From an uncultured Nitrosomonadales bacterium (lineage in GTDB: Bacteria > Pseudomonadota > Gammaproteobacteria > Burkholderiales > Gallionellaceae), in the NCBI GenBank assembly GCA_903861075.1, contig CAIOSY010000105.1:1-36689 (forward strand): DNA of 36,689 nucleotides, in the 5' to 3' direction. Below the pieces are notes generated by a model. The model ran no database searches. It saw only the letters and a list, made by a program, of their open reading frames with translations, and had not been told where the DNA came from. This document shows positions 10,501-32,803 of this stretch, piece by piece; the stretch's first letter is position 1; every line of letters starts with the position of its first letter. The position numbers were made by a program, and so were the translations under genes.

Positions 10501-11034
10501 ATGTCCAAGCCCTTGCGCTTGAGTGAGCTTGATGAAACACTTAAACGCTGGCTACAGCTTGCTGAGCCGGACTATACAAGGACTCAGCACAGCGGCGAAT
10601 CCGGCGAATCTGCCATTGAAAAACGACTCGCATCGGAGTCGGAGAACCTATCTTTAGTGCAAAGCAATGAAGTTCCCCCCGAAGAGGCTGAGGAGGAATT
10701 TGCAGTTTGGGATGCGATGAGTTTGACCCGCATGGTGGGCGATAATCCCGCCTTGCACCGTCGTTTGCTGACTAAATTTTTGCAAGGCGCCGATGTGCAG
10801 GTGTCGGATTTGCTGGCCGCAATTGAGGCGGGTGATCCGGCTGGCGTGACCGGTTTAGCGCATAAATTAAAATCGGGTTCGCGTTCGGTGGGTGCGATGC
10901 AGTTGGGCGAGCTGTGTTTATCGCTGGAAATGGCAGGACGCGCAGAAGATATTGATAAATGTCGTTCTTTTGCAACGGCGCTTTCGGCAGCCTATGCCGC
11001 CTGTAGAGAAATGATCTCCCTGGGGTTGACATAA
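7504..11034 (+). CDS. CHASE-domain hybrid sensor histidine kinase (CHASE-PAS-PAS-HisKA-HATPase-REC-Hpt)
   Basis: Large 1176-residue inner-membrane signal receptor carrying a complete phosphorelay. An N-terminal membrane helix (about 10-30) and a second helix (about 313-337) bracket a periplasmic CHASE sensor domain, with the typical FEPFSGRN-like segment around 140-150 (LEPFSGRNLRAFGFDM). Two PAS domains follow (about 365-480 and 520-640), then a HisKA with phosphoacceptor H651 (SHEIRTPMNG), a HATPase domain with GIGM and GGSGLGLS boxes, a receiver with D949 (LLLTDCHMPNMDG), and a C-terminal Hpt domain with H1120 (LAHKLKSGS). The ATG is preceded by AAGG. The next gene is a paralogue in the same order, so the pair arose by duplication. 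The ligand is unknown; CHASE domains sense diverse small molecules. No DNA-binding output is encoded nearby. Confidence 0.95.
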   Translation: MSFKDFSARTWAVLAFMIGLCLTYQLVRMAKIDTEQKKQDYYNIRVSVALDHIQQRLHAYQQVLQGVSGLFDAQNQVDRQAFKRYVAAQHLETQFPGIQGVGFSLIVPAADKERHIKSVQSEGFSNYTLKPDGVRDSYTAIIYLEPFSGRNLRAFGFDMFSEPVRHAAMQQALDEDRAVLSGKVRLVQEDGKQPSSGFLMYLPVYRQGVIHKSLSERRVSALGWVYAPFRMNDLMNQVLGENSADLDLEIYDGDKVSPDTLMYDSTYLHENKAVVANSSFQTLPLSIVGHTWTVRMRPLPSLYSSLDLRRPILLAVIGTVMSVLLACIVWLLLTGRERAMSMAKRISQSLVEEQERLVLATRTTQELLYSMAEAAYGVDDKGCCTFVNQALITLLGYDSPDELLGKPIHPLIHHSRADGTPYPAAECKMLQRREFNQPIVVADEVFWRRDGVAVPVEYRANPIIRDGIAMGVVATFVDITERLAVEQELRQHRDHLEQLVEQKSSDLQRMLSELQQQRTVIDEHAIVSISDVRGRITYANDKFCQISGYTREELIGQDHIILNSDVHPKGFFKDMWVTAARGGVWHGDVCNRAKSGKLYWVNSTVAAFMGPDDKPLEYFSVRTDITDRKRAEVAAQVAVVAKSHFLANMSHEIRTPMNGVIGMLDILQQTVMTNDQQRIVSTVHTSALALLNILNDILDYSKIEAGKMSIESIPLSLPRIVEDIIQLMQIEADNKGVQLSAVIAPDLPEWIASDPTRLRQILLNLVGNAIKFTDGTQGRGKVTLTVESCVLKGGDTGLVLRIADNGIGMSEAVIDTLFTPFTQADSSTARKFGGSGLGLSIVKRLVTLMKGEVSVDSAQRVGSEFVVRLPLLASEPAEPMKRLASVYHDYDDKIIPTGLFVLLAEDNEINRRVMQEQLRLLGYNVDVAEDGVQALSMWRAGHYSLLLTDCHMPNMDGYELTMAIRSEEAAGRRLPIIAVTANAMDGAVECCLNSGMDAFMSKPLRLSELDETLKRWLQLAEPDYTRTQHSGESGESAIEKRLASESENLSLVQSNEVPPEEAEEEFAVWDAMSLTRMVGDNPALHRRLLTKFLQGADVQVSDLLAAIEAGDPAGVTGLAHKLKSGSRSVGAMQLGELCLSLEMAGRAEDIDKCRSFATALSAAYAACREMISLGLT

Positions 11035-11116
11035 GACAGGGGGCGACGAAGTCCAATAGCTATCGCAGGAATGAGGCACGCTGGACTCAATCCTGTTAAT
11101 CGGGAGCGTTATCGCT

Positions 11117-14100
11117 TTGGCATTAAGAAAATTTCAAAATAACTGGCCCGCCTGGGTGGTGCTTTTTTTCGGTTTGCTGGCCTCATTGTGGGTCAGTCTG
11201 CACCTGCGTAATACTATTGACGAAGAAGCGTTAGTGCAGTTTTCGATTGCATGCGATCAGATTACGATTAAAGTAACCGAAACACTGGATAATGAAGCGC
11301 AAATTTTACGTGGCGGGGTTGCTTTATTTGCCGCATCTAATCAGGTGAGCCGTCAGGAATGGTATACCTTCGTTACGACACTGCGCGCCAGTGATAAACA
11401 AGGCATGGGTTATGCCCAGCGGGTTCCGGATAATCAAATAGCTGCACATCATGAACAGCTGCGCGCTGAGGGGCTATTCGATTACACCGTTTACCCCGCT
11501 TCTAACCGTGAAACGCATGCCCCGGTCATTTATTTTGAGCCGTTAAAAGGCGAGAATCTCAAACTCATCGGCTATGATATGTATACCGATGTCGTTAGGC
11601 GTAACGCGATGGATCAAGCCCGTGACACAGGCAAGCATGCACTGACAGGACGGGTGCGCTTGAGTCAGGATAAAAAAGGACGAATTCAGACGGGTGTTTT
11701 GATGTATGACCCGGTTTACCGTCAGGGTGCGTCGCTGGCTACGGTAGCGTCGCGACAAGCAGCGCTGTTGGGTTGGGTTTTTAAACCGTATCATCTTAAT
11801 GAACTGTTGGCAGATGCCTTGACCGATCAGAGTCTGTATCAAGGTAAAACCTTGAGTTTACATATTTATGATGGTCAAACGCTTTCAGATGTGACGCTGC
11901 TGACGGATACGCATCCAAACAGAGACTTCAGTGTCAGGACGCCTTTTTATCAGCAAAGGACGATTGTTTTTAACGATCATATTTGGACGCTGGCATTTGA
12001 GCGGGATTTGAAGGTGGTGCCCATCAGTCATTTGTCGTCCTTCGCCGCTATGGCAGGCGGCATCATCCTGTTTTCTGCCATTTTCGTCTTGATGCGTGCC
12101 GTTTCCATCGCCGGTGTGACCTCATCGGATTTGTCTGAGGTGCTGGCTCGTGAGGTTGAATTGCGCACAGCGGAATTGGTCTTGATGCGTGATACGGCAC
12201 AAGCGGCCAATCAGGCTAAGTCGACTTTTTTGGCCAATATGAGCCATGAAATTCGAACGCCGATGAATGGTGTGCTGGGGATGGTGGATATCTTGCAGCA
12301 AACCCAAATGACCGACACTCAGCGATATATGGTTGCGACCGTACATGATTCATCCCTTGCTTTGTTGAATATTTTAAATGACATACTCGATTACTCAAAA
12401 ATTGAGGCGGGCATGATGTCAGTTGAAAGGATACCGACTTATCTGCGCGAAGTGGTTGAAGGGGCTGCGCAGTTGATGATTACCATCTCGGAAGCTAAAT
12501 TTATTGATTTTTCGGTATTTGTTTCGCCCGAATTACCGCTTTGGATAGAAACAGATCCGACTCGCTTACGTCAGATATTGTTAAACCTGCTGGGTAATGC
12601 GATTAAATTTACTTCCAATATGTCAGATCGAACGGGTCGTGTCAGTTTGCGCGTTGAACCTTGTGCCCTGAATAACGGTTCGGGGTTGCGTTTTTGCATT
12701 ACGGATAACGGCATAGGCATGAGTCAGAGCACTCAGGATAGCTTGTTTCAACCTTTTACTCAGGCTGATTTAAGCACGGCACGCAAGTATGGCGGCACGG
12801 GTTTAGGCTTGAGTATTACTCAGCATTTGATACAGTTGTTGGGCGGTAAGCTGTCGGTTTCCAGTCAGCCCGATGAGGGTTCCGTGTTTATGGCCGTGGT
12901 GCCTTTGCTTACTGCAGCCCCGAGCAGAGTGTTGCCTTCTGCGCCGGATCTTCAGGGTTTGCCGGTCTTGCTGGTGACGCCCAATACGGTTCAAACGGTG
13001 CCGCTGTATTGTCAGTCCGCCGGTGCTAAGGTGGATGTGGTGGCGGATATGGCTGGCGCACGGCAGTTTTTGCAGCACGCTGATCCGTGTACTGTTGTGG
13101 TGTTATCAAGCTCAATTACGCTACCCAGTGATGCCTTGGATTTGCCTGCGGGTGTGCAGGTAATACGTTTTGTGCGTCGCAGCAGTACCGGCTATTCGGG
13201 GGCTGAAATTAAAGTTCAGAGCCATCCTTTGTTGTATATGGACCTGTTAAATGCCTTAGGTATGGCCAGCGGGCGGATTGCTTCGCAACAAAAACCGCTT
13301 GAATCTCGCCGGGTTGAGCGGCGTAAGTCTCCGCGCGGTCAGCCACCTACAGTCGATGAAGCGCGTCAGGCCGGCCGCCTGATTTTACTGGCTGAAGATA
13401 ATCCCATTAACCGCGCCGTGATGTTGCAACAATTACAGTTGTTGGGTAATGCCGCCGAAACAGCTTGTGACGGTGTGCAGGCGCTGGAAATGTGGCGCAC
13501 CGGTCAGTATGCCCTGTTGCTTACCGATTGCCATATGCCGAATATGGATGGTTTTGAACTCACTAAAAAAATACGCAGTGAAGAGCCGGCAGGCAGCCAT
13601 CTGACGATCATCGCCGTTACGGCCAATGCCATGCAAGGCGAGGTGCAAAACTGTATTGATCAGGGCATGGATGATTATTTATCCAAACCATTACGCTTGG
13701 CAGATTTACGCGCCATGCTTGGAAAATGGCTGCCGAGGAAGGTGGTTTCACAACCCGCTGTCGCGGAAGTCAGTCCTGCATTGCCAGAGGATAATAATGC
13801 AGTTGTGCAAACACCCGTTTGGGATGAGCAAGCGCTCGTCCTGGTGGTCGGTGATGATCCTGCTAATTTATGTCTTTTATTGAATGCGTTTTTGGAATCT
13901 GCACCGGCGCAAATTATCTCGCTATGCGAGGCCGCTCAAGCGGGGGAAATTGCCTCGGTTATCTCTTTAGCTCATGGATTTAAATCTGTGGCACGCACCA
14001 TGGGCGGGATGCAGTTGGGTGATTTGTGTCAAGCACTGGAAATAGCGGGGAGGGCGGGTGAGGCAGAAAATTGCAGCCGGATGGCGACGCAGTTGCATGC

Positions 14101-14155
14101 TCAGTACGCAGCCTGTCGCGATGAAATATTAAAAAACCTGAACGCGCAGTCTTAA
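11117..14155 (+). CDS. CHASE-domain hybrid sensor histidine kinase, paralogue, with a degenerate extra receiver
   Basis: Second 1012-residue hybrid kinase in tandem. It has an N-terminal membrane helix (about 11-30), a periplasmic CHASE domain, a second helix (about 310-330), no PAS domains, HisKA with H377 (SHEIRTPMNG), HATPase (GIGM; GGTGLGLS), a receiver with D804 (LLLTDCHMPNMDG) and Hpt with H953 (LAHGFKS). Between the HATPase and the active receiver lies a receiver-like stretch (about 612-720) that lacks the acidic pair (VLLVTPNT) and the phosphoacceptor Asp (VVVLSSS), so it is probably a dead receiver. The start is TTG at 11117, supported by GGGAG ten bases upstream; no in-frame ATG fits the N-terminal helix. 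It follows its paralogue by 82 bp and is likely cotranscribed. The HisKA, receiver and Hpt modules are closely similar in the two proteins. Confidence 0.94.
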   Translation: MALRKFQNNWPAWVVLFFGLLASLWVSLHLRNTIDEEALVQFSIACDQITIKVTETLDNEAQILRGGVALFAASNQVSRQEWYTFVTTLRASDKQGMGYAQRVPDNQIAAHHEQLRAEGLFDYTVYPASNRETHAPVIYFEPLKGENLKLIGYDMYTDVVRRNAMDQARDTGKHALTGRVRLSQDKKGRIQTGVLMYDPVYRQGASLATVASRQAALLGWVFKPYHLNELLADALTDQSLYQGKTLSLHIYDGQTLSDVTLLTDTHPNRDFSVRTPFYQQRTIVFNDHIWTLAFERDLKVVPISHLSSFAAMAGGIILFSAIFVLMRAVSIAGVTSSDLSEVLAREVELRTAELVLMRDTAQAANQAKSTFLANMSHEIRTPMNGVLGMVDILQQTQMTDTQRYMVATVHDSSLALLNILNDILDYSKIEAGMMSVERIPTYLREVVEGAAQLMITISEAKFIDFSVFVSPELPLWIETDPTRLRQILLNLLGNAIKFTSNMSDRTGRVSLRVEPCALNNGSGLRFCITDNGIGMSQSTQDSLFQPFTQADLSTARKYGGTGLGLSITQHLIQLLGGKLSVSSQPDEGSVFMAVVPLLTAAPSRVLPSAPDLQGLPVLLVTPNTVQTVPLYCQSAGAKVDVVADMAGARQFLQHADPCTVVVLSSSITLPSDALDLPAGVQVIRFVRRSSTGYSGAEIKVQSHPLLYMDLLNALGMASGRIASQQKPLESRRVERRKSPRGQPPTVDEARQAGRLILLAEDNPINRAVMLQQLQLLGNAAETACDGVQALEMWRTGQYALLLTDCHMPNMDGFELTKKIRSEEPAGSHLTIIAVTANAMQGEVQNCIDQGMDDYLSKPLRLADLRAMLGKWLPRKVVSQPAVAEVSPALPEDNNAVVQTPVWDEQALVLVVGDDPANLCLLLNAFLESAPAQIISLCEAAQAGEIASVISLAHGFKSVARTMGGMQLGDLCQALEIAGRAGEAENCSRMATQLHAQYAACRDEILKNLNAQS

Positions 14156-14187: not shown

Positions 14188-14652
14188 TTATAGGAATCTA
14201 TCCAGAAGTTTGCGGCTTTGGGCGTCGAGTTGGCCTAGGTCGCGTATTAAAAAGGATACGCCATGCCCGTCGGTGATGAGCAGTGCCGTGTCTGAGAGCC
14301 GGCGTATATGATCTTCGGCTTTGAGTAAAAGTTCGGTCACCCCTCTATCCGTCACTACTTGCCAGGTACTGGGCGTGGCAAAGCTGGATACCTTATTGAT
14401 AGCACGAACTTCCGGGGTGAATTCCCGACTGGCTAACTCCTCAAAAATTAAGGCGCGACTCGCTGTGTCTATCGTGTTGAGTGTTTCAAGCCAGACCAGT
14501 TCGTGTCCGGCAGAGTCCGTGAGTGAAATACACTCATTCGGTGCGGCAATCGGGAAGCTGCGTACCGGTAAAATGCCTGTGTGTATTTCTCCCGTTTCGG
14601 TGGTTAATACCAGTTTTCCGGCTAAATTTCGTGTCAGGGTGCAAGATGTCAT
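14188..14652 (-). CDS. DUF1854 family protein associated with cyanophycin metabolism
   Basis: Soluble 154-residue protein with no signal peptide. The C-terminal two thirds match what I know of DUF1854: an EVRAINKVSSF segment, a TDRG motif after a Trp-Val strand (about 97-105), an IRRL segment and a final LDAQSRKLLDRFL. Members of this family recur beside cyanophycin synthetase genes together with an ABC transporter, which is exactly the arrangement here. The start ATG overlaps the stop of the ABC gene upstream (ATGA), so the two are translationally coupled and probably interact. The biochemical role is unknown; a partner or regulatory subunit of the transporter is the simplest inference. Confidence 0.85.
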   Translation of the reverse strand: MTSCTLTRNLAGKLVLTTETGEIHTGILPVRSFPIAAPNECISLTDSAGHELVWLETLNTIDTASRALIFEELASREFTPEVRAINKVSSFATPSTWQVVTDRGVTELLLKAEDHIRRLSDTALLITDGHGVSFLIRDLGQLDAQSRKLLDRFL

Positions 14653-16931
14653 GCGCCAGCCTTTTGATCAATTTGAGTCACGGGGGCATCATCTAAATCG
14701 GTATCCACGTTGCGCGCTTGTGCCTGATAGAGGCGGTAATAAGCGCCCTGGGCTTGCATCAATTCATCATGGCTGCCAATTTCAACAATTTCGCCTTTAT
14801 CCAGAACCACCAAACGATGGGCTTTATGCAAGGTCGATAAACGATGGGCGATGGCAATGGTAGTGCGTCCTTGTACCAGATTGTCGAGTGCCTTTTGAAT
14901 TTCCTTTTCTGTTTCGGTATCCACTGAGGCGGTGGCTTCATCCAGTATCAGGATACGCGGATCTATCAACAGGGCGCGGGCAATGGAAATGCGTTGGCGT
15001 TCACCTCCCGAGAGGCCGTGACCGCGTTCGCCTACCAGTGAATCATAGCCGTGTGGCAGGCGCAATATAAATTCATGTGCATGGGCTGCACGGGCTGCCG
15101 CAACAATTTGCGCGTGCGTTGCATCGGGTTTTCCATACGCAATATTTTCAGCAATGCTGCCGAAAAACAGGAAAGGATCTTGTAACACGAGGCCGATATG
15201 GCGTCGATATTCCGAGACCGGTAAGGCGCGGATATTCACCCCGTCTATATTGATTGAGCCTTCAGAGACATCATAAAAGCGACACATGAGATTGACCAGC
15301 GTACTTTTCCCCGAGCCGCTATGGCCGACCAGTCCTATCATCTCGCCGGGTTTAATGACGAGATTAAGTCCCTTGATGACGGCGCGATTGCCATAGCGAA
15401 AGCCCGCATTTTTGAGTTCAATTTGACCTTCTATTCTAGCCAGATGTACAGGGTGAGTGGGTTCGGGTACGCTGGAAACATGGTCCAGAATATCGAAAAT
15501 ACGTTTAGCACCGGCGGCGGCTTTTTGGGTAACGGAGACGATACGACTCATGGAATCCAGTCGTGCATAAAAGCGGCTGATATAAGCGAGAAAAGCGGTG
15601 AGCACCCCAACGGTAATTTCATTATTTGAAACTTGCCAAATGCCAAAAGCCCAAACGACCAGTAAGCCGATTTCGGTTAGCAAGGAGACGCTAGGTGTGA
15701 ATAAGGACCAGATTTTGTTGATGCGGTCGTTGACTTGCAGATTGTGGGCATTCGCAACACGAAAGCGTTCCGCTTCCCGTCCTTCCTGAGCGAAAGCCTT
15801 GACGACCCGTATGCCGGGTATCGTATCAGCCAGTACATTACTTACCTGCGACCAGACGCGATCGATTTTTTCAAAGCCGGTTCTTAAGCGGTCACGCACG
15901 TTATGTATCATCCAGGCAATGAAGGGTAACGGTACTAAGGTAACGAGTGCCAGCCAGGGATTGATAGAAAATAAGATGGCGGCTGTCATCAGTATCATCA
16001 GTACGTCAGTGGCAAAGTCGAGCAGATGCAAGGATAAAAAAACGCAGATGCGATCAGATTCAGAGCCTATGCGTGACATTAAATCGCCGGTACGTTTTCC
16101 GCCAAAAAATTCCAGCGACAGGCGCAGCAGATGATCGTAGGTGATGGTGCGTAAGTCCGCGCCTATGCGTTCGCTGACCAGAGCAAGGATATAGGTCTTG
16201 GCCCATCCTAAACCCCATGCGGCCAGTGCTGAACCTAGCAGTCCGAGCAGCAACCACATAACGATGACAAAATCGATCGGTGCGCCATTTTGGTAAGGGA
16301 TAAGAACGCGATCCATCAAAGGCATGGTCAAATACGGCGGAACCAGCGTGGCGGCAGTGGATGCCAGCATCAATAAAAATCCCGACAGCAGTTGCCATTG
16401 ATAGGGTTTTGCAAAAATCCACAGACGTAATAAGGTCCAGGTTGAAGGTGGCGCATGCAAAGTGCTGCTGCATTGCGGACATTCGCCCTGCTCGAGCGGC
16501 AGGGGCGACATACATTCAGGACATAATTCCAGCGGCGCTTGTACAACGGCAACGCCCGTGATATGGCTTTGGCAGTGTAGATTAAACTGCTTGATAAAGC
16601 GCGTGGCTTGAATATTGTGCGCCAGGGTGTAAAACCAGCAGGCGAGTCGGACTTCCCCGTTAAACAGTTCAATTTTTCCGACGCCGCCGTGGTCATGACG
16701 CGTAAGGCTAAGCGTGTTCTGATAAGCGTACGCTTCAACGCGCTCAACACTGTAACTGAGCAGGCGCTGTCCTGTCAGGACGAGCAACTGATCCGAAAAA
16801 TTGAGTTGATTATCCAGATTGATATTAAGCCAGCACTGAACTTCTTCAGTGTCGAGCAGGCATGAGGGGACGATGGCGCGCCAGACGTCAGGAATAAGTG
16901 TTTTGATGGGAGAGTCGGTTCGAGTATTCAC
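14649..16931 (-). CDS. ABC transporter (fused permease/ATPase) with N-terminal zinc-ribbon, cyanophycin-associated
   Basis: A 760-residue half-transporter of the exporter type. Residues about 20-125 form a soluble domain with an LLVLTGQRLL strand that resembles PH/GRAM-like folds (weak inference). Four cysteines follow as CPEC (C137, C140) and CPQC (C151, C154), a probable zinc ribbon. A six-helix transmembrane domain spans about 170-470. The nucleotide-binding domain has Walker A (GHSGSGKST), the LSGGERQR signature, Walker B (ILILDEATAS) and an H-loop (IAHRLS). The start codon is GTG at 16929-16931. It is coupled to the DUF1854 gene and divergent from the two cyanophycin synthetase genes across 232 bp. 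Ordinary MsbA-like exporters lack the N-terminal extension. The substrate is unknown; transport or membrane-linked handling of Asp/Arg, dipeptides or polymer are all possible. Confidence 0.9.
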   Translation of the reverse strand: MNTRTDSPIKTLIPDVWRAIVPSCLLDTEEVQCWLNINLDNQLNFSDQLLVLTGQRLLSYSVERVEAYAYQNTLSLTRHDHGGVGKIELFNGEVRLACWFYTLAHNIQATRFIKQFNLHCQSHITGVAVVQAPLELCPECMSPLPLEQGECPQCSSTLHAPPSTWTLLRLWIFAKPYQWQLLSGFLLMLASTAATLVPPYLTMPLMDRVLIPYQNGAPIDFVIVMWLLLGLLGSALAAWGLGWAKTYILALVSERIGADLRTITYDHLLRLSLEFFGGKRTGDLMSRIGSESDRICVFLSLHLLDFATDVLMILMTAAILFSINPWLALVTLVPLPFIAWMIHNVRDRLRTGFEKIDRVWSQVSNVLADTIPGIRVVKAFAQEGREAERFRVANAHNLQVNDRINKIWSLFTPSVSLLTEIGLLVVWAFGIWQVSNNEITVGVLTAFLAYISRFYARLDSMSRIVSVTQKAAAGAKRIFDILDHVSSVPEPTHPVHLARIEGQIELKNAGFRYGNRAVIKGLNLVIKPGEMIGLVGHSGSGKSTLVNLMCRFYDVSEGSINIDGVNIRALPVSEYRRHIGLVLQDPFLFFGSIAENIAYGKPDATHAQIVAAARAAHAHEFILRLPHGYDSLVGERGHGLSGGERQRISIARALLIDPRILILDEATASVDTETEKEIQKALDNLVQGRTTIAIAHRLSTLHKAHRLVVLDKGEIVEIGSHDELMQAQGAYYRLYQAQARNVDTDLDDAPVTQIDQKAGA

Positions 16932-17163: not shown

Positions 17164-19332
17164 ATGGAGTTTCTCAAAATATTGCCTTTGCGTGGTCCGA
17201 ATATTTGGACCTATCGTCCCGTGCTTGAGGTTTGGTTAGATATCGGCGTGTTAGAAGATTCCCCGTCCAATACCATCCCCGGTTTTTACGAACGCCTGAC
17301 TGACTGGTTGCCTACGCTGATCGAACATCGTTGTGGTATTGGTGAACGAGGTGGTTTCTTGCAACGGCTGCGTGAGGGAACCTGGCCCGGTCATATCCTC
17401 GAGCATGTCACCTTAGAATTGCAAAATCTGGCGGGTATGCAAAGCGGCTTTGGCAAAGCGCGCAGTACCTCTGTGCGTGGCGTGTACAAAGTGGTCGTGC
17501 GTTCGCGCAATGAACAAGTTACCCGGGTCGCCTTACAGGAGGCGCGGGGTTTGATACTGGCTGCGATGAATAATCAGCCCTTTGATGTTGCCGCAACCCT
17601 GGCGAAGTTGAATGATATGGTAGACAGATTGTGTCTGGGGCCGAGTACCGCATGTATTGTTGATGCGGCAACCGACAGAGCTATTCCTTCGATACGTTTA
17701 ACCGAAGGGAATCTGGTGCAGCTGGGCTATGGCGCGCGGCAACACCGTATCTGGACGGCTGAGACGGATCAAACCAGTGCCATTGCGGAAACGATATCCA
17801 GAGACAAGGATTTAACCAAGACCTTATTGCAGGCGTGCGGCGTGCCCGTTCCTGAAGGACGAATTGTTGATAGCCCCGAGGATGCCTGGCAGGCTGCTGA
17901 AGATATTGGTTTGCCTGTTGTGGTAAAACCTTCCGACGGTAATCATGGTCGCGGGGTTTCAACGGAATTGATGACCCGTGAAGAAGTCTTGACCGCTTAT
18001 GCCCTTGCCGATGAGCAGGGCAGCGAAGTGATCGTTGAGCGCTTTATACGTGGAAATGAACATCGCCTGCTGGTTGTGGGTGGCCGTTTGGCGGCAGCGG
18101 CGCGAGGTGAACTGGTTTATCTGGTGGCTGATGGTTTATCTACCGTCAGCACATTGATCGCAGAACAAATCAATACTGATCCGCGTCGCGGGGCGGGGGA
18201 AGATTTTCCGCTTAGTCTGGTTGAGCTGGATCAGAATGCGGCGGCTCAGTTTGAAATTGCACGTCAAGGTTATACTGCGGATTCAATTCCACCGGCGGGT
18301 GTGCAAATTTTAATTCAGCGTACCGGTAATGTGGTGGATGATGTGACCGATCTGGTACATCCGGAAGTGGCCTCCCTCGTGGCACTCGCGGCCCGTATTA
18401 TCGGTCTGGATATTGCCGGTGTTGATCTGGTCGCGGAAGATATTTCACGCCCGTTAGCCGGCCAGGGCGGAGCGATCGTTGAAATCAATGCAGGTCCGGG
18501 TCTGCTGATGCATTTGAAACCGGCTTCAGGGCATGCGCGCCCGGTAGGTCTGGCTATTGTAGACAGCCTGTTTTCTGAAAATGAAAATGGCCGCATTCCC
18601 GTCATTGGTATTTGCGGCACGCACGGTAAAGCACAGGTTGCGCGCATCGTCGCCAGATTGTTGAAACTGGCCGGTTTTTATGTCGGGCTGGCATCGCGGG
18701 ATGGCTTGTCGTTTGACAAACGTATTGTAGACAAGAAGGATTGCGCAAACTGGGCTTCCGCGCAAAAAATACTGCTCAATCGCTCAGTTGAAGCGGCTGT
18801 GATTGAAAATAGTATAGAGATGATTTTGTCTGAAGGACTCGGCTATGACCGCTGTCAGGTGGGTATTGTTACCAATTTAGAACCTGCCCGTCATGTCGGT
18901 GCCTATTATATTGAAACCCCGGAGCAGGTTTGCAATGTGGCACGCACGCAAGTCGATGTCGTGTTGTCCGAAGGCGTTGCGGTACTCAATGGCACGGATA
19001 GTCTGGTTGTGGCATTGGCACAGTATTCGGATGGCGAAGTGATTTATTTTGCCGCTAGCGATCCGCTGCCGGCCGTTTCGGCTCATCTTGCATCGGGCGG
19101 TCGTGCCGTTTTGGTTCAAGATGGCAGTATCGTATTAAAACAGGGGGAGACAGCGTGTATTTTGCTCAAGTTGGCCGCTGTCCCTATGTCCAGCAAGGAG
19201 TGCAGTTTGTCTCAGCTTGACAATGTACTGGCCGCGATTGCAGCGGTTTGGGCCTTGGGTGTTTCTACGGATTTAATGCGCGCGGGGATTGCGACCTTTG
19301 AGGTGGCGCGTGCGGATGTATCTGATGCTTAA
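17164..19332 (+). CDS. cphA': Shorter cyanophycin synthetase paralogue (CphA'-like), Mur module degenerate
   Basis: A 722-residue homologue of the gene that follows. The N domain (about 1-160) keeps H77-I-L-E80-H81 and E85 within GHILEHVTLELQ. An ATP-grasp domain (about 215-480) looks complete, with VVVKPSDGNHGRGV, VERFIRGNEHR and a metal-site end VEINAGPGLLMH. The Mur-ligase-like region begins at about 480, but its P-loop reads GTHGKAQ (485-491), lacking the Thr/Ser after the Lys. The protein ends about where the Mur C-terminal domain should begin, so Arg-adding activity by the Mur route is unlikely. Two-gene cphA'/cphA sets are known in betaproteobacteria, and cyanobacterial CphA2 also has an inactive Mur module and uses Asp-Arg dipeptides. 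Whether this protein extends polymer, recycles dipeptides or supports its partner is undecided. The Shine-Dalgarno sequence (AGG) is weak. Confidence 0.9.
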   Translation: MEFLKILPLRGPNIWTYRPVLEVWLDIGVLEDSPSNTIPGFYERLTDWLPTLIEHRCGIGERGGFLQRLREGTWPGHILEHVTLELQNLAGMQSGFGKARSTSVRGVYKVVVRSRNEQVTRVALQEARGLILAAMNNQPFDVAATLAKLNDMVDRLCLGPSTACIVDAATDRAIPSIRLTEGNLVQLGYGARQHRIWTAETDQTSAIAETISRDKDLTKTLLQACGVPVPEGRIVDSPEDAWQAAEDIGLPVVVKPSDGNHGRGVSTELMTREEVLTAYALADEQGSEVIVERFIRGNEHRLLVVGGRLAAAARGELVYLVADGLSTVSTLIAEQINTDPRRGAGEDFPLSLVELDQNAAAQFEIARQGYTADSIPPAGVQILIQRTGNVVDDVTDLVHPEVASLVALAARIIGLDIAGVDLVAEDISRPLAGQGGAIVEINAGPGLLMHLKPASGHARPVGLAIVDSLFSENENGRIPVIGICGTHGKAQVARIVARLLKLAGFYVGLASRDGLSFDKRIVDKKDCANWASAQKILLNRSVEAAVIENSIEMILSEGLGYDRCQVGIVTNLEPARHVGAYYIETPEQVCNVARTQVDVVLSEGVAVLNGTDSLVVALAQYSDGEVIYFAASDPLPAVSAHLASGGRAVLVQDGSIVLKQGETACILLKLAAVPMSSKECSLSQLDNVLAAIAAVWALGVSTDLMRAGIATFEVARADVSDA

Positions 19333-19362
19333 TGCCATTAACCACACTGAAGGAAATTTGTA

Positions 19363-21930
19363 ATGGAAGTGTCTCGTATACGCGCGCTGCGCGGACCTAA
19401 TCTGTGGAGTCGACATACCGCTATCGAAGCGGTGGTCTCTTGTACACAGGCGGAATGTGATATTGCTCAAATCCCGCAGTTCGAAGCAAGGCTACGAGCC
19501 CGTTTCCCGGAAATTGGCATGTTGCAACTGCCCGGTCACACGGATGCGGTAACGATGGCACATATTCTGGAAGTGGCCGCACTGGCTTTGCAAGCTCAGG
19601 CAGGCTGTCCGGTATCCTTTAGTCGTACCGGTACCACCCTCGATGAGGGGGTGTTTCAGGTGGTGTTTGAGTACAGCGAGGAAGAAGTGGGGCGCTTAGC
19701 CTTTACGCTGGCGCGAGATTTGTGCAATGCCGCTGTTGCTGATAGCACGTTTGATTTGGCGCTGGCGCTCGATCAATTGCGCGAACTGGATGAGGATGTG
19801 CGTCTGGGGCCGAGTACCGGTTCTATTGTGGATGCCGCTGTGCGCCGTAGCATTCCTTATCGCCGGCTCACCCAGGGTAGTCTGGTTCAGTTTGGCTGGG
19901 GAAGTAAGCAACGCCGAATTCAGGCAGCAGAAACTGATCGCAGTAGCGCGATTGGTGAGGCCATCGCACAAGATAAAGAACTGACCAAGAAATTGCTCGA
20001 AGCGGCCGGCGTTCCTGTGCCGCAAGGTCGTCCGGTTGCCAGTTCAGATGACGCGTGGGCTGCGATGTGCGAGATTGCAGGCCCTGTGGTGGTAAAACCT
20101 CTGGATGGCAATCAGGGTAAAGGCGTGACGGTTAATATTGTGACGCGTGAACAACTGGATGTTGCTTATAGCGTCGCCGCAGAAATGGGTTCAGAAGTGC
20201 TGGTCGAACGTTTTATTCCAGGCAGTGATTTTCGTATGCTGGTCGTTGGCAATCAATTAGTCGCTGCAGCACGGCGCGAACCCCCGCTGGTTATCGGTGA
20301 TGGTGTGCATACCGTGCGTGAATTGGTCAATCAGGTAAATAATGATCCACGGCGCGGCGAAGGGCATGCAACATCGCTGACTAAGATACGTCTGGATGCC
20401 ATTGCTCAGGCCAGACTTGAAGCCCAAGGTTATAGCGATACGTCCATTCCCAAAAAGGGTAGCTGTGTGGTGTTGCGCAACAATGCCAATTTGAGTACGG
20501 GTGGCACGGCGACCGATGTAACCGAAGACGTGCACCCTGATTTAGCCGCCAGTGCCGTTGCTGCGGCGCAAATGGTGGGTCTGGATGTGTGCGGCGTGGA
20601 TGTGGTATGTGACAGTGTACTGCGCCCGATGGACGAGCAGGGGGGGGGTATCGTTGAAGTTAATGCGGCACCGGGTTTGCGTATGCACTTGCAACCGTCC
20701 TTTGGTAAAGGACGCGATGTGGGTGAAGCCATTGTTTCAATGATGTTTGAGCCCGGCGATGACGGACGTATTCCGCTGGTCACCGTTGCGGGTACGAATG
20801 GTAAAACAACGACGGTACGCTTGATAGCTCATATACTCGGCTGCCAGGGCTTGCGTGTGGGAATGACCAATTCAGATGGCGTTTATATTGAAGGGCGTCG
20901 TATTGATACGGGTGATTGCAGCGGTCCTAAGAGTGCACGCAATGTTTTGCTTCATCCTGATGTTGATGCGGCTGTTTTTGAAACGGCCAGGGGCGGCGTA
21001 TTGCGCGAAGGTTTAGCGTTTGATCGTTGTGATGTGGCTGTTGTGACCAATATCGGTATGGGCGATCACCTGGGGCTCAACTACATTAGTACAGTCGAAG
21101 ATTTGAGCGTGGTGAAACGGGTCGTCGTACAGAATGTTACGCACAATGGAACCGCCGTGTTAAATGCGGCTGATCCTATGTCGGCAGCAATGGCTGATGT
21201 GTGTCCGGGCTCGGTGACTTTTTTTGCAAAAGATCGTTATCATCCTGTGATGGCGGCGCATGGCGCACAGGGAAAACGTGTCGTGTATGTTGAAGGTCAT
21301 CAGATAGTCGCGCGTGAGAAAAAAACGGAGTTGCGTATTGATTTTAATCAGATTCCGATCACCCGTAATGGCACGATAGGTTTTCAGATTGAAAACGCCA
21401 TGGCTGCGATTGCGGCCGTCTGGGCATTGAATGTTGACTGGGAGACGATCTGTCGGGGGGTGGCAAGTTTTGTGAATGATGCCAAAACCGCGCCCGGTCG
21501 CTTTAACTTCTTTGATTATCATGGTGCGTCCGTGATTGCGGACTATGGACATAATCCGGATGCCATACTGGCGCTGATTCCAGCTATTGAAAGTATTCCG
21601 GCAAAAAAACGGCTGGTGGTTATCAGTGGTGCAGGCGATAGGCGTGACGAAGATATACGTATGCAGACGGAAATTCTGGGGGATGTCTTTGACGAGGTGA
21701 TTCTGTATCAGGATCAGTGTCAGCGCGGTCGTGCCGATGGCGAGGTGTTGAATTTGCTCAGATTGGGTTTGACTCATGCTCAGCGTGCAACAAAAATGGA
21801 TGAAATTACCGGTGAGTTTTTAGCGATTGATACTGCGCTTGCCCGTCTGGAACCGGGGGATTTATGCCTGATTTTAATTGATCAGGTCGATGAGGCTCTG
21901 GCGCACATCGCCCACGCTTGTTCTAAATGA
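19363..21930 (+). CDS. cphA: Cyanophycin synthetase (CphA), with altered N-domain motif
   Basis: Non-ribosomal polymerase that builds multi-L-arginyl-poly-L-aspartate from Asp, Arg and ATP in the cytoplasm. The 855 residues show an N domain (about 1-160), an ATP-grasp domain that adds Asp (about 210-470: VVVKPLDGNQGKGV, VERFIPGSDFR, VEVNAAPGLRMH) and a complete Mur-ligase-like module that adds Arg, with P-loop GTNGKTTT (477-484) and the C-terminal DYGHNPDA motif from D727. In the N domain the paralogue's HILEHVTLE is replaced by HILEVAALA (H67, E70, V71, A75), so a His and a Glu are lost. It starts 30 bp after cphA' with a good AAGGA site and overlaps the methyltransferase gene as ATGA. A G9 run (20640-20648) lies inside the gene. 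No cyanophycinase or isoaspartyl dipeptidase gene is in the window. Confidence 0.95.
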   Translation: MEVSRIRALRGPNLWSRHTAIEAVVSCTQAECDIAQIPQFEARLRARFPEIGMLQLPGHTDAVTMAHILEVAALALQAQAGCPVSFSRTGTTLDEGVFQVVFEYSEEEVGRLAFTLARDLCNAAVADSTFDLALALDQLRELDEDVRLGPSTGSIVDAAVRRSIPYRRLTQGSLVQFGWGSKQRRIQAAETDRSSAIGEAIAQDKELTKKLLEAAGVPVPQGRPVASSDDAWAAMCEIAGPVVVKPLDGNQGKGVTVNIVTREQLDVAYSVAAEMGSEVLVERFIPGSDFRMLVVGNQLVAAARREPPLVIGDGVHTVRELVNQVNNDPRRGEGHATSLTKIRLDAIAQARLEAQGYSDTSIPKKGSCVVLRNNANLSTGGTATDVTEDVHPDLAASAVAAAQMVGLDVCGVDVVCDSVLRPMDEQGGGIVEVNAAPGLRMHLQPSFGKGRDVGEAIVSMMFEPGDDGRIPLVTVAGTNGKTTTVRLIAHILGCQGLRVGMTNSDGVYIEGRRIDTGDCSGPKSARNVLLHPDVDAAVFETARGGVLREGLAFDRCDVAVVTNIGMGDHLGLNYISTVEDLSVVKRVVVQNVTHNGTAVLNAADPMSAAMADVCPGSVTFFAKDRYHPVMAAHGAQGKRVVYVEGHQIVAREKKTELRIDFNQIPITRNGTIGFQIENAMAAIAAVWALNVDWETICRGVASFVNDAKTAPGRFNFFDYHGASVIADYGHNPDAILALIPAIESIPAKKRLVVISGAGDRRDEDIRMQTEILGDVFDEVILYQDQCQRGRADGEVLNLLRLGLTHAQRATKMDEITGEFLAIDTALARLEPGDLCLILIDQVDEALAHIAHACSK

Positions 21931-26596: not shown

Positions 26597-28486
26597 TTAA
26601 CTGATAATTTTTTTGCTGCGTAGTACCTCAATGATTTCCGGAATGACACCGGTATCATCTATCGTGGAGGGAACCGTATATTCACGTCCGTTGACGATGT
26701 TACACAATGTTTTACGCAGCGTTTTCCCGGAGCGAGTCTTGGGGAGGCGTGATAATACTACCGTATCTTTGTAACAGGTGATGGCGCCTATGGTTTCCCG
26801 TATATTTTTGAGCAATTGTTGATGCAGCTCGATTTCACTTAAGGTTGCACCGGTTTTTAGCACCACGAGCCCCATGGGCGTTTGCCCCTTGAGTTCATCA
26901 TCACGCGCGATGACTGCACACTCCGCAATTGCAGGGTGGGTGGCGATGACTTCTTCAATTTCACCTGTGGAGAGTCGGTGGCCGGCTACATTGATAACGT
27001 CATCAACGCGTCCCATCACGAAAACATAACCCTCCTCATCAATATAGCCGCCGTCGCCACTGGTGTAATAGCCCGGCAGAAAAGTTAAATAACTCTCCCT
27101 GAACTTGTCTTCATCACCCCATACCTTGTTAAGGCAGGAAGGCGGCAGAGGCAGTTTTATCGCAATATATCCTTGCGTCCCTCTGGCCTGCTCTACCCCT
27201 TGCTCATCGAGTATCTGTACATTGAATCCCGGCACAGGTTTAGTGGAGGAACCCATTTTGATAGGCAAGGGTTCAACGCCACGCAAATTGGCCGTAATCG
27301 CCCAACCGGTCTCGGTTTGCCACCAATGATCGATAACGGGTTTTCCGCTCATGTGATTGAGCCACTCTTCTGTCGGCGCATCGAGTCGTTCACCTGCTGA
27401 AAAAATGGTTTGCAGTTTACTCAGGTCATATTGCTTCATGAGTAAGCCTTCCGGATCTTCTTTTTTGACGGCACGAAAAGCGGTCGGTGCGGTAAATAAG
27501 GCTTTGACGCCATATTCTGCACACACGCGCCAGAGCGCACCGGCATCGGGCGTCATAATGGGTTTTCCTTCATAGACTATGGTGGTGCAGCCTTGCAATA
27601 AGGGAGCGTAGACGATATAGGAATGTCCCACGACCCAGCCCACGTCAGATGATGCCCAAAACACATCGCCAGGCGCGACGTTATAGATTGCATCCATACT
27701 GTATTTGAGTGCGACCGCGTGCCCGGCGTTTTCACGCACCACGCCCTTGGGCTTGCCTGTGGTACCTGAGGTGTAAAGTATATAGAGCGGATCACTGCCT
27801 TTGACGGGGGTGCAATCTACTGTATGTGCACACGATAGCAAGGCATTCCAGTCGTAATCTCGTCCTTCAAGCAGCGGTGCGATGCATTGCGGACGTTGGT
27901 ATATCACGCAGCTTAGTGGTTTGTGGCTGGCAAGTTCAATGGCGCGATTGAGTAACGGTGCGTATTCGACGATGCGCTTGATTTCAATACCGCAAGACGC
28001 ACTTAATATGACTTTGGGCGTTGCGTCATCAATGCGCACTGCCAATTCGGGAGGAGCGAAGCCGCCGAAAACGACTGAGTGTATCGCACCCAGTCTGGCA
28101 ACCGCCAGCATGGCAATGACGGCTTCGGGTATCATCGGCATATAGATGATGACGCGATCACCTTTTACTACGCCTAAATTTGCCAGCATGCCCGCGGTGA
28201 GCGCGACAACCCGGGTTAATTCGGAATAGGTGTAGCTTGTCTTGGTTTGGGTGACGGGGGAGTCAAAAATGAGCGCGAGTTGATCTCCGCGCCCCTCGTT
28301 GACATGATGATCGAGTGCCATATAAGCCGTATTCATCTCACCGTCGCTAAACCAGGAACCCTGGCCATCGTCGGCTGTGGTCAAAATATGCTCAGGAAAT
28401 TTAAACCAATCCAGGGCTTGCGCCTGCTTGCGCCAGAAACTTTCTGGATCTTGCATGGAATGATCATATTCTGTCTGGTAGCTCAT
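26597..28486 (-). CDS. prpE: Propionyl-CoA synthetase (propionate--CoA ligase)
   Basis: Activates propionate with ATP and CoA, the entry step of the 2-methylcitrate cycle. The 629-residue acyl-CoA synthetase has the adenylate-binding P-loop YTSGTTGKPKG (238-248), the WWQTETGW motif and YTSGDGGYIDEEGYVFVMGRVDD in the hinge region. The acylation-controlled lysine lies near the C-terminus in PKTRSGKTLR. The N-terminal pattern (SFWRKQAQALDWF) and the C-terminus after the lysine fit PrpE rather than acetyl-CoA synthetase. The start has a good GGGGAG site. It follows prpD by 59 bp, the longest gap within the operon. Confidence 0.94.
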   Translation of the reverse strand: MSYQTEYDHSMQDPESFWRKQAQALDWFKFPEHILTTADDGQGSWFSDGEMNTAYMALDHHVNEGRGDQLALIFDSPVTQTKTSYTYSELTRVVALTAGMLANLGVVKGDRVIIYMPMIPEAVIAMLAVARLGAIHSVVFGGFAPPELAVRIDDATPKVILSASCGIEIKRIVEYAPLLNRAIELASHKPLSCVIYQRPQCIAPLLEGRDYDWNALLSCAHTVDCTPVKGSDPLYILYTSGTTGKPKGVVRENAGHAVALKYSMDAIYNVAPGDVFWASSDVGWVVGHSYIVYAPLLQGCTTIVYEGKPIMTPDAGALWRVCAEYGVKALFTAPTAFRAVKKEDPEGLLMKQYDLSKLQTIFSAGERLDAPTEEWLNHMSGKPVIDHWWQTETGWAITANLRGVEPLPIKMGSSTKPVPGFNVQILDEQGVEQARGTQGYIAIKLPLPPSCLNKVWGDEDKFRESYLTFLPGYYTSGDGGYIDEEGYVFVMGRVDDVINVAGHRLSTGEIEEVIATHPAIAECAVIARDDELKGQTPMGLVVLKTGATLSEIELHQQLLKNIRETIGAITCYKDTVVLSRLPKTRSGKTLRKTLCNIVNGREYTVPSTIDDTGVIPEIIEVLRSKKIIS

Positions 28487-28545
28487 TTTATTTTCTCCCC
28501 TAACTTAAATTTGAAACACAACGTCCCTGTTTTTATAGAGTGGTA

Positions 28546-30033
28546 TTAGTTGATGGAAAAAAGCGCCATAAACTCATGGACGGGCGTGGCCTCCAGACGG
28601 GCTTTATCCAGGCATAACGCCATGATTTGCTGACAGCGATGTTCCGGGAATCGGGTGCGTAGATTGGATAGGAATTTTTCTTCCAATACAGGGATACCCT
28701 CGGCACGGCGGCGGCGGTGACCAATGGGGTATTCAACCGCGATTTGATCAGTACTGCTGCCATCTTTGAAGAAAATTTGAATTGCATTGGCGATGGAACG
28801 TTTATCGGCTTCCAGATATTCACGGCTGTATCGTGGCTCTTCGACGATTTCCATTTTTTCACGCAGTTGGTCGATGATAGGGTGGGCTGCATGGAAACTA
28901 TCTTCGTAGTGTTCAGCGACCAGATCACCGAATGCCAGGGGTACAGCCACCATGTACTGGATGCAGTGATCGCGATCAGCCGGGTTGGCGAGCGGGCCTA
29001 CTTTTGAAATTATACGAATGGCCGATTCGTGCGTGGTAATGACGATGCGACTAATATCATCCAAACGTCCCTTTACTTGCGAATGCAAACGAACGGCGGC
29101 TTCGCAGGCGGTTTGCGAGTGAAATTCGGCCGGAAAGGAAATCTTGAATAGTACGTTTTCCATCACGTAACTGCCATAAGGCTGGTTCAATGCAAAGCAA
29201 CGCTGTGCTTCGGGTTTTAACAACTGATCCTTATTGGTCTTGGAAAACAGTACATCGTAAAAACCCCATTGGGGTGCAGTCAATACACCAGGGATCCCCA
29301 TTTCTCCTGCCATGGTCATCAAAGCCAGTCGCACGGCGCGGGACGTCGCATCACCTGCCGCCCAGGATTTACGGGAACCCGCATTGGGCGAGTGACGGTA
29401 AGTACGCAACGATTGCCCATCGACAAAAGCTTGAGACAGTGCGTCTATGACTTGTGCTTCTGTACCGCCCAGCAGACGCGTGACGACGGCGGTGGATGCA
29501 ACCTTAACCAGGATCACATGATCGAGGCCTACGCGATTAAAACTGTTTTCCAGTGCCAGCACGCCTTGAATTTCATGTGCCTTAATCATTGCCGTTAACA
29601 CATCGCGTACGGTCAAGGCGACGCTACCTTCACTTATGTTGCAACGAGATAAATAGTCAGCGACGGCCAGTATGCCCCCCAGATTATCTGAAGGATGACC
29701 CCATTCGGCAGCAAGCCAGGTATCGTTGTAATCAAGCCAGCGTATCATCGCGCCGATATCCCAGGCGGCTTTGACCGGATCCAGTTCGTGGGAGGTGCCC
29801 GGTACGCGGGCTCCGTTGCGAACGGTAGTGCCAGGGACGATAGCGCCTAAATGTTTAGTGCATTCAGGGAAACGCAGCGCCAGTAAGCCGCAGCCTAACG
29901 TGTCTATCAGACAATTGCGTGCCGTGTCATAAGCTTCTAAGGAACTTATGTCCATACGGCAAACATAGCGGGCGATATCTACCAGGACTTGATCGGGGGC
30001 AGGGCGGTTGTTCATTTCTACATTTGAACTCAT
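28546..30033 (-). CDS. prpD: 2-methylcitrate dehydratase (MmgE/PrpD family)
   Basis: Dehydrates 2-methylcitrate to 2-methyl-cis-aconitate. The 495-residue product shows the PrpD landmarks: [10 protein letters not shown] near 45-55, [20 protein letters not shown] (about 100-120), and the C-terminal-domain segment [10 protein letters not shown] around 308-317. The genuine PrpD is present rather than the alternative AcnD/PrpF pair, so an aconitase (not in the window) is expected to complete hydration to 2-methylisocitrate. It lies 39 bp after prpC and has an AAGGA site seven bases before the ATG. Confidence 0.94.
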
Positions 30034-30072
30034 GATTTTTCCTTAATGTTGGGTATGTGCGGGTAGGGATGC

Positions 30073-31221
30073 TTAACGATTTTTGATCGCAACCCAGTCC
30101 AGATTTTCAGGGCCGGTATAATTTGCACTCGGGCGAATAATTTTGCCATCGCTGCGCTGTTCCATCACATGAGCACCCCAGCCGGTAACACGCGAGATGA
30201 CGAACAGCGGGGTGAACATCATGGTGGGTACCCCCATCAGGTGATAAGATACGGCGGAAAACCAGTCCAGATTGGGGAACATTTTTTTGCAATCCCACAT
30301 TACATACTCCAGACGATCTGCAATATCATAAAGTCCGGTATTTTCTGCCTCTTCAGCCAGTTTTTTAGCAACGCGTTTAATGACTTCGTTGCGCGGATCG
30401 GCAATGGTATAAACAGGGTGGCCGAAACCAATGACGATCTCTTTTTTTGCCACACGTTCGCGAATGTCGGCTTCAGCCTCATCGGCGTTCCGGTAGCGAC
30501 TCTGTATGCGGTGCGCTTCTTCATTGGCGCCGCCGTGTTTAGAACCGCGCAAGGCGCCAATAGCCCCGCAAATACAGGAATACAAATCTGAATTTGTACC
30601 GGCAATGACGCGTGCGGTAAAGGTCGATGCATTGAATTCATGTTCGGCGTACAAAATCAGCGAGGTGTGCATTGCACGCACCCAGGTGTCTTTTGCAGGT
30701 ACGCCGTGCAATAAATGAAGAAAGTGAGCGCCGATTGATTCGTCATCCGTTTCAAGGTTGATGCGACGACCCGAGGTGGTAAAGTGATGCCAATAAAGCA
30801 GCATAGAGCCAAAACAAGCCAGTAGACGGTCTATTAAATCTTTGGTTGCCGCTTCATTGTGGGCTTCAGATTCCTGTTCTATTGTGCCCAGTACCGAACA
30901 GCCGGTGCGCATTACATCCATCGGATGAGCCTCGGCCGGAATGGCTTCCAGTGCTTGCTTTACCGCTGGCGGCAATTCCCGTAGTTTTTTTAGTTTAGCC
31001 TTGTAAGCTTGTAACTGCGCTTGATCGGGTAAGCTGCCATGTATTAAAAGGTGGGCAATTTCTTCAAACTCAGCCGTTTCTGCGAAATCGAGAATGTCAT
31101 AGCCGCGATAATGCAGATCATTGCCGGTACGTCCCACGGTACAAACGGCGGTATTACCCGCGACCGTACCGGACAGAGCAACCGATTTTTTAGGTTTGAA
31201 GGCGATGTGTTCTTCTGTCAT
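30073..31221 (-). CDS. prpC: 2-methylcitrate synthase
   Basis: Condenses propionyl-CoA with oxaloacetate to 2-methylcitrate. The 382-residue length matches the short PrpC branch of the citrate synthase superfamily. Catalytic-type residues are visible: H229 in [10 protein letters not shown]268 in GFGHPVYT and D275 in the following ADPR. The [10 protein letters not shown] segment (192-201) is typical. The N-terminal [15 protein letters not shown] and RGYDI segments also match PrpC. Ribosome site GGGAG precedes the ATG. It lies 20 bp after prpB. Citrate synthase activity as a side reaction is known for this family. Confidence 0.95.
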
Positions 31222-31241
31222 GAAAATCTCCCTGAAATAAA

Positions 31242-32129: not shown

Positions 32130-32803
32130 GCTTCCTCCTTGTATTGTGATTCAATAATACTGCGCCAGGCGCCCTGGATATGGCGACGCATCAGCATCTC
32201 TGCCAATTCGCCATCCCTTTGCGCTAATGCCTCTACAATGTGACGGTGTTGTTGTAATGCAGGACTGGTGCGCTGTGCATTTCGACTTGTTTGAAAACGA
32301 CACATACGCAGTAATTGGTATTGTTCACTGCCTAGAATACGCATCAACATTTCATTACGGCTACCCAAAACGATCTGGTAGTGAAAGTCAAGATTTCCTT
32401 CACTTTGGCCATAACATCCGCCATTGCCTTGCTGTTGAATTTGCTTTTCATGGGTGTCAAGCAGTCGGCTTAGCTGTTCTATTTCTTCCGGGGTCATTTG
32501 AGTGGCTGCAAGGCGACACGCCATGCCTTCCAAAGCCTCGCGTATGGCGTAAAGATCCGAGCGGGTTTTATAGTCTAGGACGACTACGCGCGCGCCGGCA
32601 TTGGGGATGCGTTTAACTAAATGTATTCCCTCAAGATGACGCAGCGCTTCACGCAACGGACCGCGTCCCATGCCAAAACGTTCCGCAAGTTCGGCTTCGT
32701 TGAGTTTTTGACCTTGTGCCAATTCGCCCGTTACGATGCTATGCGCCAGGCGGTGCGAGGCGATATCGGCAAGCGTACCTTGTTTAGGGGTGATAATTGA
32801 CAT
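32126..32803 (-). CDS. GntR-family (FadR/FCD subfamily) transcriptional regulator of the prp operon
   Basis: Predicted ligand-responsive repressor of 225 residues. An N-terminal winged helix-turn-helix (about 10-76, with [21 protein letters not shown]) precedes an all-helical FCD effector domain (about 80-218), with the D83 and scattered His residues expected for metal-assisted ligand binding ([29 protein letters not shown]). It is the first gene of the operon and is coupled to prpB, so it is probably autoregulated through the palindromes just upstream. GntR-type regulators are known to control prp genes in some beta- and gammaproteobacteria, in place of the sigma54-dependent PrpR. The ligand is likely a cycle intermediate such as 2-methylcitrate (inference). 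Confidence 0.92.

Follow-up and report, generated by a model that had tools for sequence, protein, structure and literature searches.

Complementary active sites in two neighbouring CphA1-type proteins, a candidate split cyanophycin synthetase

The reason for keeping two cyanophycin synthetase genes side by side, neither of which encodes a protein with every site of the enzyme, is the question raised by the window, the whole 36,689-nucleotide stretch of DNA analysed here (contig CAIOSY010000105.1 from an uncultured bacterium of the Gallionellaceae). To our knowledge, CphA1 has been described as one protein that bears all three sites. In the window, a gene for a shorter protein (CphA') is followed by a gene for a longer one (CphA). 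The pair probably arose by duplication of a CphA1 whose copies then lost sites reciprocally, such that CphA elongates the nitrogen-storage polymer cyanophycin and CphA' cuts chains into primers.

Both proteins pass the cut-off of PRK14016 (cyanophycin synthetase subfamily). CphA also exceeds the cut-off of TIGR02068, the CphA1 model (982.3 bits against 850), and CphA' falls below it (747.1 bits against 850). CphA' can be aligned across 715 residues with SuCphA1, the CphA1 of Synechocystis sp. UTEX2470, and none of its nine Pfam matches is to the S51-type family of the exo-cyanophycinases CphB, CphE and CphI.

Division of the sites between the two proteins

In SuCphA1, the hydrolytic site of the N domain has C59, H79 and H83 as metal ligands and E82 as base, with H57, F67, R70 and E87 around them, and its motif is Cx19HxxEH (PMC9262961). 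All eight residues are matched in CphA' (H55, C57, F65, R68, H77, E80, H81 and E85). A sequence-only reading of this DNA had placed the two open reading frames as they stand here and had set HILEHVTLE of CphA' (H77, E80, H81, E85) against HILEVAALA of CphA, which the translations confirm. It had further compared HxxEH plus a later Glu to a metallopeptidase site. The motif does align residue for residue with the SuCphA1 catalytic site, but the predicted third ligand was missed: it is Cys57, whose spacing from His77 completes the Cx19HxxEH motif. The later Glu supports a His, as E87 does in SuCphA1 (PMC9262961), and E85 was rejected as third metal ligand since C59, the equivalent of Cys57, fills that role in SuCphA1 (PMC9262961). 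The N-site remnant of CphA keeps His67 and Glu70, Val71 and Ala75 replace the second His and the later Glu, and the Cys-bearing loop is deleted in the alignment.

The comparison was extended to 399 genomes of the order, 146 of which had a match, to three genomes of a class sample and to 41 named related loci. The 136 regions fetched comprise 133 full-length paired-type CphA rows from the order (132 genomes) and three from the class, and after removal of identical proteins the set held 171 CphA', 173 CphA and 24 others, mainly single-gene CphA1. Because the genomes are related, and some were drawn from two or more of these sources, the counts describe breadth and are not independent trials. Site counts leave out 4 of the 171 CphA', which do not cover the N domain, and 3 of the 173 CphA, which do not cover the N domain, G (ATP-grasp) domain and Mur core. 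Alignments A1 and A2 are without L061, L042 and L063.

The Cx19HxxEH motif is present in 167 of 171 CphA' (the remaining four stop short of the N domain) and in none of 173 CphA. Among proteins spanning the N domain, G domain and Mur core, the complete N site occurs in 167/167 CphA' and 0/170 CphA, the general base Glu and the three metal ligands being invariant in the former. In CphA', 34 of the 161 N-domain columns reach a conservation of at least 98%, and all eight N-site columns are among them (hypergeometric 2e-6, with columns taken as independent). Positions 603 and 607 are Arg and Asp in 166/166 CphA' despite the decayed Mur core. The sequence-only reading had staked itself on such an alignment, and HxxEH/E proved to be both conserved in other CphA' and located at the N catalytic site. 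Because this motif is also lost in CphA, CphA' is likely the hydrolase half of the pair, as had been suggested. Judged by its motif, it is likely a CphA1-type N-domain endo-cyanophycinase with a predicted zinc site formed by Cys57, His77 and His81 and with Glu80 as base.

The G domain shows the opposite loss. Aspartate is bound there by R323, S396 and R458 in SuCphA1 numbering (PMC9427784). This pocket is found in 0/167 CphA' and 170/170 CphA. The ATP and carboxylate residues K220, K261, R309, E450 and N452 are all kept in 161/167 CphA' and 170/170 CphA; from general knowledge of ATP-grasp enzymes, we take E450 and N452 to be Mg ligands and K220 and K261 to be the ATP lysines. The earlier proposal that CphA' supplies ATP-grasp is not supported, given the missing pocket, although the ATP residues are kept, and CphA' was rejected as the supplier of the known aspartate-adding step. 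CphA of the window has R309, R323, N394, S396, R458 and the Mur residues tested, as in SuCphA1. With the aspartate pocket gone from CphA', CphA must supply both known synthetic steps.

Mur loss is less uniform. For the window, GTNGKTTT and a C-terminal Mur domain in CphA, against GTHGKAQ and no such domain in CphA', were read correctly; Pfam finds Mur_ligase_C in CphA only. The full set of seven catalytic and lid residues (K499, T/S500, E558, D585, H586, R731 and H748) is present in 168/170 CphA but also in 7/167 CphA', and 62 of 171 CphA' still have the P-loop consensus. Loss of Mur as the complement to loss of the N site, as first proposed, is not supported, and it was rejected as a universal complement on account of those seven. 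The universal complement is thus the N site versus the aspartate pocket, and Mur loss in CphA' is common and incomplete. Full-length CphA' occur at several spots in the CphA' clade, suggesting repeated loss of the lid.

Fifteen positions are fixed differently between the two clades. Five diverge from other CphA1 in CphA only, namely N-domain positions 57, 59, 65 and 74 around the site together with H267Q; eight G-domain positions (188, 203, 307, 396-399 and 458) diverge in CphA' only; and the remaining two, 549 and 571, belong to the Mur core. For 4000 random pairings drawn from 161 loci, identity averaged 0.645 (N), 0.669 (G) and 0.471 (Mur core) for CphA', and 0.617 (N), 0.712 (G), 0.686 (Mur core) and 0.729 (lid) for CphA.

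Position 267 is Gln in 168/172 paired CphA and His in 160/166 CphA'. The exchange H267A was used to inactivate the G domain of SuCphA1 (PMC9262961). The same Gln is found in 8/8 additional CphA-like genes from one genus, as well as in the single gene of genome G960 described below, and the other tested G residues are intact in all nine. H267Q is unlikely to mark a dead G site, and this reading was rejected since the change co-occurs with other G and Mur residues that are intact.

The predicted structure of CphA' (pLDDT 87.3, pTM 0.81) places H77 to E85 on one helix (residues 75-89), corresponding to helix 77-92 of SuCphA1 (PMC9262961). Its Mur core is degenerate yet confidently folded in the model, with pLDDT mostly >90. 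The CphA model is weaker (pLDDT 80, pTM 0.61) and no conclusions were drawn from it. The folds nearest to CphA' are CphA1 structures (TM 0.75-0.82), with CphA2 at TM 0.47-0.55; the comparison with SuCphA1 and TeCphA1 gives TM 0.78-0.82 and 38-39% identity, and that with CphA2 gives 20-23% identity. No structure of a paired CphA or CphA' is among the PDB matches listed by sequence and fold.

Breadth and origin of the pair

The pair is present in 135/145 genomes of the order sample that have a CphA1-type gene, with G171 set aside because its sole match is divergent. Three of these were counted as pair genomes outside the fetched regions: G047 (CphA in two frames), G209 (genes on separate contigs) and G066 (contig end). 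The two frames of G047 overlap on contig C67 at 34266-36831, reflecting a frameshift or an assembly error. The divergent or partial CphA-like L118, L275 and L278 were excluded from the single-gene class. Both genes are visible in 132 of the 136 fetched regions; L202, L226 and L250 lie at contig ends, and in G390 (L153) an open reading frame that from its own sequence looks transposase-like stands upstream of CphA in place of CphA'. Wherever both genes can be seen, in 175 loci (a few of which share a genome), CphA' comes first and CphA follows on the same strand, with a median gap of 37 nucleotides including the stop codon (range -7 to 603). In the window's genus, 15/37 genomes have both genes, and the best matches in the other 22 are no better than 5e-16.

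A tree of 133 proteins, built by a quick method with a midpoint root and containing some long branches, separates CphA', CphA and the remaining CphA1 into three clades, all supported by an SH-aLRT of 100. When 398 phylum genomes were searched, 29 gave a match. Two matches each were found in 20 genomes, which all belong to the order, and a single match in nine. Of these single matches, eight are ordinary CphA1 in which the N, G and Mur residues are complete (Thr500 being Ser in two), and each of the eight has a cyanophycinase-like open reading frame within the fetched stretch. The motif C-x18-22-HxxEH is present in 28/32 other CphA1 and in these further 8/8; the four exceptions (L297-L300) belong to one genus, which holds the pair too. 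In several CphA1-cyanophycinase clusters (L295 and L296 on Roseateles and Ruegeria plasmids, L356, L358, L360 and L361), an extra Mur-ligase-like gene of roughly 580-620 aa lies directly downstream of cphA.

The ninth single-match genome, G960, is from another class of the phylum. Its CphA gene (L353, 3947-6283) has all tested N, G and Mur residues except H267, which is Gln. It falls inside the pair lineage as sister to CphA' (SH-aLRT 95), and it adjoins the same ABC transporter and DUF1854 genes as the pair with no CphA' in between. From its residues and placement, this gene looks like the unsplit ancestor and is a candidate living relative of it.

Possible roles of the pair

The split-enzyme reading, which we consider probable, would run as follows. 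An ancestral CphA1 was duplicated and the copies lost complementary sites. CphA would build the chain, its G site adding Asp and its Mur site adding Arg, and the N site of CphA' would cut nascent chains into short pieces to be used by CphA as primers, with CphA' acting in trans or in a mixed tetramer with CphA. There is a precedent. The isolated N domain of SuCphA1 (carrying two solubilising changes), added in trans, frees the primer-dependent enzyme TmCphA1 from its need for primer, and a dimer also remains functional when its live N domain sits on the other protomer (PMC9262961). The division of the sites, its breadth, the gene order and the separate clades come directly from the sequences, whereas metal binding, cleavage, primer transfer, association of the two proteins and cyanophycin as the product are inferred.

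Several observations weigh against this reading. When no primer is given, the cross-protomer dimer falls somewhat short of the activity of the all-in-one arrangement (PMC9262961). Paired CphA still has His79 in 148/170 and Glu82 in 124/170, and HxxEH without the Cys is retained by 6/173. Nor is loss of the N motif confined to the pair: in four pair genomes from the genus of L297-L300 (G302, G092, G412 and G330; L327-L330), two convergent CphA-like genes form a second cluster next to a cyanophycinase, with G and Mur sites kept, and the N motif is missing from all eight genes. Loss of the N motif occurs outside the pair too, though in genomes holding a CphA'. In G960, an assembly of 410 contigs with 8% contamination, the contig ends within the CphA gene so that its downstream side is not visible. 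Decay is not seen in the G domain of CphA', where conservation reaches at least 98% in 22% of the columns, as compared with 30% in CphA. Judged from this conservation, the domain is under a constraint that the split-enzyme reading leaves unexplained and, with the ATP residues kept, CphA' probably does more than carry an N domain. Finally, Ralstonia eutropha H16 has two cyanophycin synthetase homologs and no detectable cyanophycin, none being made on overexpression of the genes, according to two reviews (PMC8560796, PMC11362209).

In genome G247, which has the usual pair at another place, L332 carries two distant CphA-like genes side by side (31-33% identity), and their G and Mur residues are altered.

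CphA' may instead be mainly degradative, an unrecognised cyanophycinase of cyanophycin storers without CphB, CphE or CphI that cuts the polymer when nitrogen is needed, priming being secondary. This is a possibility to be taken seriously, if not the expected outcome. The cut-off of the cyanophycinase model TIGR02069 was exceeded in 27/399 order genomes: 10/10 single-gene genomes, 10/135 pair genomes and 7/254 others, by our own sorting of the 146 matched genomes (the others being the 253 without a CphA match plus G171). The class sample gave 11/12 single-gene genomes, the twelfth (G658) having a divergent relative only, versus 0/3 pair genomes. In five of the ten cyanophycinase-bearing pair genomes (G386, G302, G092, G330 and G412) the cyanophycinase lies beside an additional CphA-like gene and not beside the pair; in the other five (G247, G138, G340, G104 and G057) the match scores 136-172 bits. 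The window's genome (G000, 96.3% complete) has no match to the S51 peptidase, IaaA, IadA or PF04952 (the AstE/AspA model), the last being a short model that matched only 1/14 control genomes and a weak test for the newer dipeptide hydrolases. The accessible part of a survey (PMC10206079) gives cyanophycinase in 2.8% of 903 betaproteobacterial CphA1 genomes, calls this unanticipated and suggests unknown isozymes. Since pair genomes are usually without cyanophycinase, CphA' is a candidate for this 'missing' enzyme. However, the activity of the N domain is slow and gives mostly 4-mers (PMC9262961), making it poor for mobilising a store, and CphA' is tightly paired with a synthetase in an operon-like manner. 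The lack of IaaA and IadA means that further steps would be needed, and the counts come from related genomes.

A broader proposal joins the two roles. CphA' would be the missing betaproteobacterial cyanophycinase as well as the primer maker, one make-and-break pair replacing CphA1 plus CphB, and its ATP-grasp site, in which the ATP residues remain and newly fixed residues stand in for the aspartate pocket, would be repurposed to sense or handle chain ends and to choose between cutting for priming and cutting for use. We regard this as speculative and rather unlikely.

The conserved G domain also bears on the possibility that CphA' ligates a new acceptor, by analogy with the joining of beta-Asp-Arg dipeptides by CphA2, and that its N site is secondary. 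The ATP residues kept in 161/167, the residues specific to CphA' at 188, 203, 307 and 458 and the deleted G-omega loop are consistent with such a role, and the Mur P-loop and lid are missing from CphA2 too (PMC9427784). In overall fold and identity, however, CphA' is close to CphA1 and far from CphA2, and its invariant N motif is absent from CphA2 (PMC9262961), leaving a new-acceptor ligase unlikely.

It is decidedly improbable that the pair makes a related polymer other than cyanophycin. The result with the R. eutropha H16 genes would fit, as would Gln for His267 in paired CphA, but CphA retains the tested aspartate, C-terminal-carboxylate and Mur residues, and H267Q is shared by the G960 enzyme and by CphA-like genes next to cyanophycinase, all with their other G and Mur residues intact. 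A structural or regulatory pseudo-subunit that keeps its N site for binding and not for cutting is just as doubtful, for the confidently modelled Mur core, as in scaffold paralogues, and the kept ATP residues would suit it, but polymer binding alone does not demand a base Glu and three metal ligands that are invariant in 167/167.

The pair makes the priming of synthesis in these bacteria and their breakdown of cyanophycin without a recognised cyanophycinase both testable, and it offers a simple reason for which single-gene tests could fail. CphA1 enzymes without the N motif have been explained as primer-dependent (PMC9262961). That a clade of motif-less CphA is accompanied by a neighbour keeping exactly the missing site, minus the synthetic one, suggests that the label 'simply primer-dependent' may mislead. 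Betaproteobacteria account for 903 of the 1,614 CphA1 genomes surveyed in the accessible part of PMC10206079, and with the pair in 135/145 genomes of the order sample this layout may be among the commonest.

The locus and its known relatives

The features of the locus are collected in Table 1. The ABC exporter-like and DUF1854 proteins, named cyanophycin metabolism-associated by NCBI (14188-16931), also neighbour the pair in 35/41 related loci. Upstream of the cyanophycin locus are two tandem hybrid sensor histidine kinases of 1176 and 1012 aa (7504-14155). A methylcitrate-cycle cluster at 26597-32803 encodes a propionate-CoA ligase-like protein, PrpD, methylcitrate synthase, PrpB and a GntR-type regulator.

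Table 1. Positions, in the window, of the gene pair, its diagnostic residues and its neighbours
Feature	Position	Strand	Remarks
CphA'	17164..19332	+	722 aa; N domain with intact hydrolase motif, G (ATP-grasp) domain without aspartate pocket, degenerate Mur core, no Mur lid
CphA	19363..21930	+	855 aa; intact G aspartate pocket, Mur domain with lid, dead N site
Cys57 of CphA' (= C59 of SuCphA1; predicted third metal ligand)	17332..17334	+	By alignment; role from PMC9262961
HILEHVTLE of CphA' (H77, H81 predicted metal ligands; E80 predicted base; E85 supporting Glu)	17392..17418	+	By alignment; invariant in 39 sequences compared
Shortened G-omega loop of CphA' (IQRTGNVVDD, residues 384-393)	18313..18342	+	ANLSTGG there in CphA; Ser396 and neighbours deleted
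Leu448 of CphA', replacing aspartate-binding Arg458	18505..18507	+	By alignment; Arg458 role from PMC9427784
Degenerate Mur P-loop GTHGKAQ of CphA' (485-491)	18616..18636	+	
Arg594...Asp598 of CphA' (= 603, 607 of SuCphA1)	18943..18957	+	Mur-core contacts to N-site-bound polymer; contact role from PMC9262961
HILEVAALA of CphA (residues 67-75)	19561..19587	+	N-site remnant; preceding Cys loop deleted
Gln251 of CphA, replacing His267 of SuCphA1	20113..20115	+	By alignment
Intact Mur P-loop GTNGKTTT of CphA (477-484)	20791..20814	+	
Cyanophycin metabolism-associated ABC transporter (NF052233)	14649..16931	-	Divergent from the pair
Cyanophycin metabolism-associated DUF1854 protein (NF052234)	14188..14652	-	

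Neighbouring cphA copies are already in print (PMC5178258, PMC10687191). The available text of PMC10687191 describes two neighbouring copies in Accumulibacter and in 'Group 1' activated-sludge bacteria, the latter with an ABC transporter and no cphB, and in Tetrasphaera two copies beside cphB; that of PMC5178258 describes neighbouring CphA1/CphA2 in Sideroxydans. In these portions of the two papers, there is no site-by-site comparison of the copies and no suggestion that they divide the work. No site comparison of neighbouring copies and no proposal of a split was found in the openly licensed literature searched, and a published account may exist elsewhere.

CphA2 of Gloeothece and Stanieria (PDB 7ta5, 8fxh) has no Mur P-loop and no lid (PMC9427784), like CphA' of the window, but it has no N motif (PMC9262961), unlike CphA'. 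The identification of CphA' as a CphA2 was rejected, given the N motif and a fold and sequence far from CphA2. TmCphA1 of Tatumella morbirosei, a primer-dependent CphA1, resembles paired CphA in lacking the N motif, with none of its four residues (PMC9262961), yet it keeps the His at 267 (GNHGRG, chain 7lgn) that paired CphA lacks. SuCphA1 (PDB 7lg5, 7txv) has the same N-site residues as CphA' at the same spacing, and paired CphA departs from it at H267 and E215 as well. The main difference is one of distribution, with three sites united in a single protein in SuCphA1 and divided here between two proteins, each without what the other keeps.

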